Below are positions 52,156 to 57,992 of a DNA stretch of 64,000 nt, piece after piece. Origin of the DNA: Acidimicrobiales bacterium (lineage in GTDB: Bacteria > Actinomycetota > Acidimicrobiia > Acidimicrobiales > Acidimicrobilacustridaceae); NCBI GenBank assembly GCA_025455885.1, contig JALOLR010000005.1, forward strand, positions 124,001 through 188,000. The letters run 5' to 3'. The position numbers and the translations under genes were made by a program. Each line of letters opens with the position of its first letter. Position 1 is the first letter of the stretch. Below the pieces are notes generated by a model. It ran no database searches, was not told where the DNA came from, and saw only the letters and a list, made by a program, of their open reading frames with translations.

Positions 52156-53037
52156 GTGCAGATCTCCATGACGCTGCCGACGATGCTCCCGCACGGGCGC
52201 GACGAGGTGCTGGCCTGGTGCCGGGCCGTCGACGAGGGGCCCTACGCCAGCCTGGCCGTGCCCGAGCGGGTCACCTACACGAGCCACTCGTGGGTGGTGC
52301 AGCTCGCCGCGGCCGCGGCACTCACGGAACGGGTGCGGCTCTGGACGACGATCGTCATCCTCCCGGCCCACAGCGCCGTGGAGACGGCCAAGCACCTGGC
52401 GTCGGTCGACCAGCTGTCGGCCGGGCGCCTCACCGTCGGCATCGGGGTGGGTGGTCGCGAGCACGACTACCGCGCCATCGACGGTGACTTCACCCGCCGC
52501 TGGGCCCGCATGGACGAGCAGGTCGCCACGATGCGCTCGGTGTGGGCGCAGGAGCCGCCGTTCGAGGGCGCCGACCCGGTGGGCCCTCCCCCGGTGCAGG
52601 CGGGTGGGCCGCCGCTGGTGGCGGGGGTGATGGGGCCCAAGGCGATGGCCCGCGCCGCCAGGTGGGCCATCGGGGTGGACGAGGCGTCGACCGTGTTCGG
52701 TGTCGACCCGACGGCGACGGCGGCGGCGTTCGACCGGATCCGGGCGGCGTGGCGGGACGAGGGGCGCACCGACGCTCCGCACATCTCGGCCAGCCTCTGG
52801 TACGCGCTCGGCGACGGGGCCGCTGATCGTCTGTCGGGGTACTGCTTCGACTACATGCGCATCTTCGACGAGGGCCTCGCCAGGTCGATGGCCGAGACCG
52901 TCACCTGCAACTCGGCCGAGGCGCTGCGCGCCGCCGTCGCCGCGTGCGCCGACCTGGGCTGCGACGAGCTCTTCCTCGTACCCACCACCGTCGACGTCAC
53001 CGAGCTCGACCGCACGCGCGACGCCCTCGGGATCTGA
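52156..53037 (+). CDS. F420-dependent LLM-class oxidoreductase, 293 aa
   Basis: Luciferase-like monooxygenase fold (F420- or FMN-dependent). It shows AVPERVTYTSHSWVVQLAAAAALTERVRLWTTIVI near residues 34-70, the SAGRLTVGIGVGGREHDY block (about 92-110, cofactor-binding GxGxGxR) and the helical insert typical of mycobacterial F420 enzymes. GTG start at 52156 with GGGAGG 9 nt upstream, itself in a predicted stem. It reduces or oxidises an unknown substrate using coenzyme F420. Together with the CrtC-like gene and the reductase after it, it may form a three-gene unit. Confidence 0.78.
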   Translation: MQISMTLPTMLPHGRDEVLAWCRAVDEGPYASLAVPERVTYTSHSWVVQLAAAAALTERVRLWTTIVILPAHSAVETAKHLASVDQLSAGRLTVGIGVGGREHDYRAIDGDFTRRWARMDEQVATMRSVWAQEPPFEGADPVGPPPVQAGGPPLVAGVMGPKAMARAARWAIGVDEASTVFGVDPTATAAAFDRIRAAWRDEGRTDAPHISASLWYALGDGAADRLSGYCFDYMRIFDEGLARSMAETVTCNSAEALRAAVAACADLGCDELFLVPTTVDVTELDRTRDALGI

Positions 53038-56301: not shown

Positions 56302-56748
56302 TCAGCCGAACGTGATGTCGCGACGGGCCACCCGCCAGCCGTCGGACGTCCGGACGAGGTGGTCCACGTAGCCGCCGCACAGCTTCACGGTGGGAGCGGT
56401 GTCGGTGTCGACGAGGAACAGCCAGGACGACGACGCCGTCGCGACGTCCGAGCCGTCGGCGCGCACGGCGATGGTGGTGACCATGTGGCGGGTGTTGCTC
56501 CCCGGCCCGGTGTCGCCCGCCCCCCGCCGCGCCTCGGCGCCCGCCCGGATGTCGGCACGCCCGGTGCGCGGCGCCCCGGGCATCGCCCAGTGGGCGTCCT
56601 CGGTGAAGAGCCCGACGTAGTCGTCCAGGTCGGCCTCGTCGGCGTAGCGGGACAGGTTCGCGACCAGCGACCGGATCTCGAGCTCGTCGGCCACGCGTCG
56701 CAGCAGGGCGTCATCGGGGGCGGGAGGGGCACCGGGGTCGTCGGCCAT
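56302..56748 (-). CDS. SnoaL-like (NTF2-fold) protein, 148 aa
   Basis: NTF2-like cone fold. The first helix has LLRRVADELEIRSLVANLSRYADEADLDDYVGLF, followed by the DAHWAMPGAPRTGRADIR stretch and RHMVTTIAV near residue 88, all typical of SnoaL/limonene-epoxide-hydrolase-type proteins and ring-hydroxylating dioxygenase beta-like domains. The length is right for a single fold. The ATG at 56748 is fixed by TACGGT 6 nt upstream; an ATG 33 nt further upstream is less likely. Function unknown. Confidence 0.76.
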   Translation of the reverse strand: MADDPGAPPAPDDALLRRVADELEIRSLVANLSRYADEADLDDYVGLFTEDAHWAMPGAPRTGRADIRAGAEARRGAGDTGPGSNTRHMVTTIAVRADGSDVATASSSWLFLVDTDTAPTVKLCGGYVDHLVRTSDGWRVARRDITFG

Positions 56749-56754
56749 GCCGCG

Positions 56755-56760
56755 ACCGTA
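56755..56760 (-). promoter_or_regulatory. Leaderless -10 element (TACGGT)
   Basis: Read on the minus strand; TACGGT followed by exactly 6 nt and the ATG at 56748 of the SnoaL-like gene. Confidence 0.6.
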
Positions 56761-56805
56761 ACCGGCCCTCCGGAGCCACACCCACGGGTGCCGGGCCGGA
56801 GGCGG

Positions 56806-56811
56806 TAGCCT
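56806..56811 (+). promoter_or_regulatory. -10 element of the selenoprotein gene (TAGCCT)
   Basis: TAGCCT ends 8 nt before the ATG at 56820, so the message would have virtually no leader. Confidence 0.45.
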
Positions 56812-56819
56812 CGCCGGCC

Positions 56820-57905
56820 ATGACGAACGTCGAGTTGACGGTGCTCACCCCCGAGGGAACGGTGACGGTGCCCGCCGTGGTCGACGACGACCGGGTGCTC
56901 CTGACCGCCGACGCCGTGCACACGGCGATCGGGTGGGAGCCCAAGCCCGAGGGGCTGTGCCGCGGCGACGTCTGCGTGCCGGTGCGCGACCCCGCCGCCC
57001 GCGACACCGAGGGGCGCTACGACCTCGCCCGGGTCGCCGCCGCGCTCCGTCGGCCCTTCGTGGCCGATCACCTCGACGGCGAGGCGGCCGCCGTGGCGGC
57101 GGTCGGCGAGGCCGCCCACGAGCGGGCCACCGCGTTGGCCGAAGGTCGGGCCCCGCGCCTCGAGCTGACCGGCCTCGACGGGGGCCGCGTCGCCATCCCG
57201 GGTGAGGACCGGCGCAAGCGCCTGCTGCTCGCCTGGTCCTCGTGGTGAGGGTGCCGCTACGAGCTGCCGGTCTGGCAGACGCTGCAGGACGAGCTCGCCG
57301 ACACGGGCCTCGAGATCATCGCCGTCGCCCTCGACGACTCGATCGACGCCATCCGCCCGTGGGTCGACGCCGCTGACCCACCGCTCACCAGCGTGACGGT
57401 GGCGCTGGACGCCGACCACCAGGTGGCCGAGGCCTACGGGATCACCAACGTCCCCTCCACGGTCTGGCTCGACGAGGATGCCCGGGTGGTGAAGCCCCCC
57501 ACCATCACCCCGGGCAACAACATGTTCCAGGAGTTCACCCAGATCGACGCCGAGGGCCACCACCGGGCGCTGCGGCGATGGGTCCGTGACGGTGTGCTGC
57601 CGACCCTGCCCGACCGCGGCGACGGCGGCGACCCCGCCCGGGCCCGACCGCCCACCCCGGAGGAGCAGGAGGCCCGCACCGAGCGACGCCTGGCCTCGTG
57701 GCTGCACCGCAACGGCCACCCCGAGGCGGCCGAGGAGCACTACCGGCGGGCGGTCGAGCTCGCGCCGATGGACTGGACGATCAGCCGGGGGTCGATGCCG
57801 GCCCGGGGCCAGGACCCCTTCGGGGACGACTTCTTCGGCATCTGGCAGACCTGGGACGATGCCGGCCGGCCGGACTACCAGGGCATGCCCGGCGGCGACG
57901 ACTAG
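56820..57905 (+). CDS. Thioredoxin-fold selenoprotein, UGA read as selenocysteine, 361 aa
   Basis: Read through the in-frame TGA at 57246-57248 as selenocysteine (Sec143). The downstream frame is open to 57905 and gives a thioredoxin-like domain: [25 protein letters not shown], then IIAVALDDS near residue 165 and the NVPSTVWLDED cis-Pro loop near residue 211. In redoxins the position of U143, before G-C145, is the active-site cysteine. Residues 1-142 are a separate domain with C47/C52. The C-terminus has a TPR-like stretch (HPEAAEEHYRRAVELAP near 301). A GGTCT hairpin just after the TGA supports recoding. The start is a few bases after TAGCCT. It is probably a cytoplasmic redox enzyme or peroxiredoxin-like; the partner is unknown. 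Confidence 0.85.
57246..57278 (+). promoter_or_regulatory. Bacterial SECIS-type element
   Basis: After the TGA at 57246-57248, CTGCC-GGTCT-GGCAG (57264-57278) forms a perfect 5-bp stem with a 5-nt loop starting 20 nt after the TGA. The loop GGTCT is the one known in the E. coli fdhF SECIS bound by SelB, and the distance falls in the range required in bacteria. Outer pairing is weak. Confidence 0.75.
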
Positions 57906-57992
57906 ACACCCGCTCGACGACATCTCGCCGACGCGAACCTCGGCCGGCCGCCGGGCGACGCCCCACGGAGTGCGGGACCAGGCAGTGCCGGA

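Follow-up and report, generated by a model that had tools for sequence, protein, structure and literature searches.

The window analysed here, a stretch of 64,000 nt from the genome of an Acidimicrobiales bacterium, carries at 56820–57905 on the forward strand a gene for 361 residues, provided that one internal TGA is read as selenocysteine (Sec). The gene is delineated by its frame, by a match to the NCBIfam model NF041054 and by relatives which align over the whole length in alignments of 28 and 45 rows. It starts with an ATG at 56820 and contains a single in-frame TGA, codon 143 at 57246–57248, which is followed by 218 sense codons and a TAG at 57903–57905. In the context WSSW-U-GC, this TGA falls within the active site of a thioredoxin fold of the ResA/TlpA type. 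Further downstream, a hairpin is found at 57264–57278, with the arms CTGCC (57264–57268) and GGCAG (57274–57278) and the loop GGTCT (57269–57273). The frame, the stop and the hairpin, all three claimed by an earlier, sequence-only reading of this DNA, are indeed there. An open frame of 512 aa on the opposite strand (56385–57923, complement) spans the whole gene, and related antisense frames cluster in 72 out of 82 loci, counting the window and using the best 80 of 382 named relatives; most likely it is a by-product of high G+C coding.

The predicted protein consists of several parts. The N-terminal domain (residues 1–106, 56820–57137) is beta-rich and carries the motif GWxxKPEGLCRGxxCxP, in which Cys47 (codon at 56958–56960) and Cys52 (56973–56975) form a CX4C pair. 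The thioredoxin-fold domain covers about residues 107–260 (57138–57599), and within it residues 110–225 match the Pfam families AhpC-TSA (41.3 bits, cut-off 26) and Redoxin above cut-off. The C-terminal part (about residues 280–347, 57657–57860) is helical in the structure model and weakly TPR-like (TPR_2, E 4.8e-4, below cut-off). Cys or Sec occurs in the window protein only at residues 47, 52, 143 and 145, the last one (codon at 57252–57254) completing the U-G-C motif. All 180 proteins aligned have Cys or Sec at each of these positions, and at 47, 52 and 145 it is Cys throughout; for this set, rows shorter than 280 residues were removed, as were rows repeating a segment that was already included.

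AlphaFold2, run with the 45-row alignment, gave a model with a pLDDT of 93.4 and a pTM of 0.91 for the whole protein, and a pLDDT of 92.6 for the N-terminal domain. Residues 105–257 of this model superimpose on ResA (1st9, Z 13.9, 136 residues aligned, rmsd 2.3) and on DsbE (3gl3, Z 14.8, 140 aligned, rmsd 2.1). For the N-terminal domain no Pfam family was matched, the comparison with PDB sequences gave nothing better than E 1.1, Foldseek returned nothing at E<=0.001 (best 0.072), and the best Z in structure comparison was 5.9; judged from the model, this domain appears to be without a clear known fold. The architecture had been called unusual, which has to be softened insofar as the N-terminal motif is common to the 180 aligned relatives and not peculiar to this gene. 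The active site of ResA/TlpA-type proteins is CxxC. The window domain shares the fold of the ResA, TlpA and DsbE thiol-disulfide oxidoreductases but has U-G-C instead of CxxC in the Sec forms and C-G-C in the Cys forms, and the protein differs from them also by its extra N- and C-terminal parts and by the lack of a hydrophobic N-terminus. As the protein begins with a stretch (MTNVELTVLTPEG) that lacks hydrophobic character and shows no visible export signal, export is unlikely and a location in the cytosol probable. Thus, the product probably is a cytosolic thioredoxin-fold oxidoreductase.

Relatives were read at 131 loci, comprising the window, 30 loci and 100 stretches from 395 genomes of one class, presumably the Acidimicrobiia; listed matches including G238:C42, G212:C110 and G374:C48 were left out. 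An aligned residue at position 143 is available for 129 of these loci, L068 and L137 being omitted as their match lies only beyond the site, at or near contig ends. Counting the window, codon 143 is TGA in 112 and Cys in 17 of the 129. Homologues with Cys at position 143, which the sequence-only reading had proposed to look for, therefore exist, and both the frame and the homology run on beyond this site. A locus from the same genus (L107), whose protein is 68% identical, has the TGA at the same codon. A scan of named genomes, of which the best 80 of 382 relatives were kept, added Cys forms in Nocardioides and Aquihabitans and Sec forms in metagenome-assembled genomes (MAGs) named Chloroflexi, Dehalococcoidia, Deltaproteobacteria and Myxococcales. 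No relative was found in plasmid records at E 1e-20. One contig titled Bifidobacterium breve (CAMBEL010000076.1, L151) has a Sec gene close to that found in a MAG of the Acidimicrobiia; its copy L095 adjoins L092 in the 180-row tree, and the label is probably wrong.

As a single base separates TGA from TGC and TGT, the two codons for Cys, one could imagine a pseudogene or a sequencing error, by which a gene that formerly coded for Cys would have acquired a nonsense codon. However, L107 and more than 110 further loci, including those from the best 80 of 382, have the TGA at the same codon with homology on both flanks. Conservation of the TGA in independent assemblies refutes this explanation, and we give it practically no credit. 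Also highly improbable is termination at the UGA, by which a functional piece of 142 N-terminal residues would be made, the downstream part being either translated from an internal GTG (57393) or a relic. It is true that 56820–57248 and 57393–57905 are listed as separate open frames, but the stretch between these two frames holds C145 and W152 (180/180) as well as L149 (178/180), the Cys homologues cross the site in one frame, and the Sec form goes together with selA.

This last association was seen by comparing the 97 genomes with a Sec form to the 17 with a Cys form: selA (E<=1e-50) was detected in 93 of the former versus only one of the latter (Fisher p 6e-15, genomes treated as unrelated). 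The four Sec-form genomes without detected selA are G174 (70% complete), G188 (79%), G292 (96%) and G363 (75%). The one Cys-form genome with selA is G162. Its Cys-form locus (L070, G162:C34) lies on a different contig from the selA, which scores 603 bits, and the listed contamination is 5%; either a recent change to Cys or a foreign contig would account for it.

The genome from which the window comes has the complete Sec-decoding trait. The sequence-only reading had linked its claim to selA, selB, selD and the tRNA-Sec, and all four are present. The tRNA-Sec (selC) scores 70.6 bits and is called by ARAGORN as tRNA-SeC(tca), anticodon UCA; a second place is weakly above the tRNA-Sec cut-off (48.9 bits). 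The selA (418 bits) and selB (273 bits) genes adjoin each other on contig C2, the latter being a frame of 627 aa with an extra match to positions 540–578 in the same frame, and selD scores 364 bits. In 256 of the 395 genomes of the class selA is above cut-off, hence the use of Sec is common there. Among ten genomes searched from the window's own family, selA and a strong relative of the gene occur only in the two of the window's genus and neither of them in the other eight. Two limited searches for further selenoproteins in this genome found none. A candidate at C13:44683–45162, peroxiredoxin-like and by eye of the Bcp type, was rejected as its TGA is an ordinary stop; the formate dehydrogenase-like matches include none with an internal stop and none at the family cut-off.

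The distance between the TGA and the hairpin is 15 nt to the stem and 20 nt (57249–57268) to the loop, so that the earlier statement of twenty nucleotides holds for the loop and not for the stem. Within the loop, whose positions we number L1 to L5, covariation suggests a G-C pair between 57269 (L1) and 57272 (L4) around GU, with the U at 57273 unpaired; the folding program leaves all five bases 57269–57273 unpaired. A search of the 3.29-Mb genome for TGA-N15-STGCC-N5-GGCAS gave one match, at the site of this gene, and a backwards control gave none. Two Rfam matches were obtained, both far below cut-offs and outside the hairpin. The folding energy of 57262–57280 is -8.0 kcal/mol (z -1.99), and with flanks the z values are 0.85 and -0.47. 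Taken alone, this energy is weak evidence, as the hairpin is not singled out once its flanks are included; what makes the hairpin convincing is its conservation.

Such conservation might merely reflect the protein. The P, W and Q codons of the encoded LPVWQ force part of the stem, and the hairpin could then be a by-product of coding, with Sec insertion, if any, depending on another signal. Indeed, the 5-bp stem is kept in 9 of the 17 Cys relatives of the first set and in 15 of 51 Cys genes of the combined sets (including the best 80 of 382), which shows that part of the hairpin stems from the conserved LPxWQ protein motif. But L1 and L4 are both third codon positions, L1 in the Pro codon and L4 in the codon after it, and it is here that Sec and Cys genes part. 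In the first set, the 112 Sec loci have an intact stem in 111 cases, a Watson-Crick pair L1–L4 in 111 and both in 110, versus 9, 6 and 4, respectively, of the 17 Cys loci. When L1 was shuffled within classes of the next amino acid (5000 rounds, loci treated as unrelated), the tip pair was formed on average in 62.6 and at most in 78 of the distinct Sec segments, compared to 103 out of 104 observed. Pro-Gly/Val dicodons further down in the same Sec genes, which served as a control, pair at the equivalent sites in only 35 of 107 cases.

In a second set, drawn from the best 80 of 382 named loci, 23 segments (18 Sec, 5 Cys) were known from the first set and 57 were new. Among the latter, stem and tip pair are present in 23/23 Sec segments, whereas in the Cys segments the stem is found in 6/34 and the pair in 13/34. 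Both sets combined, again with the named part limited to the best 80 of 382, amount to 135 Sec rows (116 distinct segments) and 51 Cys rows. The tip pair covaries in 134/135 Sec versus 19/51 Cys genes, and the stem, the L1–L4 pair and a G at L2 occur together in 133/135 Sec rows versus 3/51 Cys rows (L070, L103 and L111). The Sec loops in these 135 rows are CGGGT (51), GGTCT (40), CGTGT (22), AGGTT (12), GGACT (6), AGTTT (3) and AGTGT (1); apart from one exception, the tip pairs are C-G, G-C or A-U. The exceptional Sec rows are L029, with A-G at the tip, and L081, with one mismatch in the stem. Moreover, stems were rebuilt by two-sided changes in L047 (TTG..CAA), L084 (CTT..AAG), L176 (GTC..GAC) and L199 (CTC..GAG), and in the last three of them the protein motif is altered too with the stem kept. 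By sequence comparison, stem, loop G and tip pair are thus commoner in Sec genes than protein coding would give. Like the pseudogene and the termination readings, the explanation as a coding by-product was tested and rejected, and we regard it as very remote. The claim of a SECIS element, in turn, gains strong support from this covariation at synonymous sites.

Taken together, the relatives with Cys or TGA at the site, the Sec machinery in the genome and an RNA signal which is kept in the Sec relatives and mostly lost in the Cys ones support the claim of Sec insertion at 57246. From the frame, the machinery, the Sec/Cys exchange and the covariation we infer that UGA 143 is decoded as Sec in a thioredoxin-fold redox protein, with a probability of about 0.96.

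The hairpin had been described as fdhF-like. This is right for the tip, the loop of E. coli fdhF being, as we take it, GGUCU as well, and it does not hold for the stem. The key bases described for the fdhF SECIS are U17, G23 and U24, of which U17 bulges out of the 5' arm of the stem (PMC8659212), and no such bulge is present in the window stem. With regard to the general bacterial model (bSECIS), a 2026 review (PMC13188914) gives a loop of 3–9 nt, a stem of 4–16 bp, a G within the first two bases of the loop, in most cases a pair N1–N2, a distance of 16–37 nt between UGA and apical loop and a minimum free energy of at most -7.5 kcal/mol. The window element agrees with all of these (20 nt spacing, 5-bp stem, 5-nt loop GGUCU with its G, tip pair, -8.0 kcal/mol), and the spacing is as the sequence-only reading had assumed for bacterial SECIS elements. 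One difference remains: the window tip has two nucleotides between N1 and N2, followed 3' of the pair by a U, and in the model as printed there the pair surrounds one more.

The distribution of the two forms over the phylogeny requires 8 Sec/Cys changes, both in a quick tree of 180 rows (with long-branch warnings) and in a careful tree of 72 selected rows. The pattern is explained most simply by repeated loss of Sec, which goes together with a lack of selA. A variant of the Sec reading would be a recent gain of Sec from Cys in the window's genus, inside a mostly Cys clade. As such a gain would have it, the quick tree joins the window protein and L107 to 28 Cys rows (support 94), and the careful tree joins them to four (99/90). 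But when a two-state likelihood model was fitted to the careful tree, the rate from Cys to Sec came out as zero, and a model allowing only Sec loss reached the same fit (lnL -26.765 in either case). Hence, a gain appears unlikely. Two Sec relatives, L176:6001–6984 (stem GTCCC/GGGAC) and L199:5995–6996 (stem CTCCC/GGGAG), stand beside Cys rows in the careful tree.

The locus from the same genus (L107) has several clusters of open frames in common with the window, and the best 80 of 382 named loci share with it scattered single frames only: a luciferase-like monooxygenase (52156–53037; L181, L207 and L216), an aldo/keto reductase (L212) and one large frame of antisense size (L220). Next to the Cys form of Nocardioides (L177, L187, L203, L227 and nine more loci among the best 80 of 382) lies an antiporter gene; in L227 the downstream gene matches Na_H_Exchanger and TrkA_C, and its relatives are 57–219 nt off in 12 of 13 Nocardioides loci and 913 nt in L189. 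In the window this arrangement is not seen. In an Acidimicrobiaceae MAG (L221:1814–3610) an acyl-CoA dehydrogenase gene ends about 3 nt before the chosen start of the selenoprotein.

Of the NCBIfam models, only NF041054 (WAxxUGC_long, "ResA-like WAxxUGC motif-containing protein") was found to describe the window protein, which matches it with 206.4 bits over residues 29–324. This is below the equivalog cut-off of 300 bits, and the protein is thus not a member. Common to both are the motif W-[AS]-x-x-U-G-C, a similar length and the in-frame TGA; in the 180-row tree, however, the window protein is found in a separate branch of 120 rows, apart from NF041054. All 28 proteins of alignment A1 match this model (best E 4.6e-77) and no other NCBIfam model better; judged by their E-values, none of them would reach 300 bits. 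Matches above cut-off occur in 39 of the 395 class genomes, most with one in-frame TGA, and among the matches listed there are about ninety more at 130–264 bits, again mostly with one TGA. On sequence grounds, the window gene is part of a sister group to NF041054 that lies below its cut-off.

In a broader sense, the window protein has the features of the UGC-containing TlpA/Prx-like kind, namely an AhpC-TSA/TlpA-type fold and an in-frame TGA within U-G-C, aligned with the Cys of homologues. From the entries concerned, this kind is already known by prediction: one table row of the GOS survey gives "Prx-like (UGC-containing)" with the values 46, 15 and 855 (PMC2398784), of which we take the first to be the number of Sec sequences; a "UGC-containing Prx-like protein" is named in PMC9312934; and a "UGC-containing TlpA disulfide reductase family protein" is listed as "predicted with high confidence" (PMC13188914). 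As far as these table rows and descriptions go, Sec in U-G-C and an AhpC-TSA/TlpA-like thioredoxin fold are shared with the window protein, and a CX4C domain is not stated in them. At the level of titles and abstracts, our literature search found nothing on WAxxUGC selenoproteins nor, in papers on selenoproteins of Acidimicrobi-, on a gene of this type; an earlier treatment is possible. What is new here is the subfamily below the NF041054 cut-off, the contrast between Sec and Cys genes in the SECIS with its synonymous covariation, and the invariant CX4C domain.

For the decoding we propose that SelB together with the Sec-tRNA (UCA) would read UGA 143, with the hairpin 16–30 nt downstream positioning SelB. 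SelB would recognise the tip N1-G-N-N2, N1 being paired with N2, and then the unpaired U. In the protein, the centre Sec143-Gly-Cys145 may form and resolve a selenylsulfide: Sec143 would attack a disulfide or peroxide, and Cys145 or the pair Cys47/Cys52 would resolve the product. Invariance of the Cys47/Cys52 pair goes along with that of the Sec centre, in the Cys forms as well, which suggests that they share one reaction. We propose that this Cys pair might pass electrons to or from the Sec centre in a relay of two redox pairs; its role may also be structural or in metal binding. Going further, one might think of a self-contained selenoenzyme with two centres, in which the CX4C dithiol of an N-terminal domain of unrecognised fold recharges, or is recharged by, the Sec-Gly-Cys of the same chain without a separate thioredoxin partner. 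Such an enzyme would be spread from what are presumably Acidimicrobiia to MAGs named Chloroflexi and Myxococcales, and its SECIS would be read mainly via the tip, variable in sequence yet nearly always paired and enclosing two nucleotides, together with the U 3' of it. We offer this as a tentative picture, with the odds somewhat against it.

The standard code splits the window gene at its TGA, and ordinary annotation cuts genes of this type; in addition, the 300-bit cut-off of NF041054 omits whole branches of such Sec genes. Pairs of Sec and Cys genes allow the bacterial SECIS to be tested cleanly by a natural experiment, since features required for Sec are kept in the Sec genes and mostly lost in the Cys genes. 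Finally, the invariant set of CX4C and U-G-C points to a redox mechanism that is concrete and testable.
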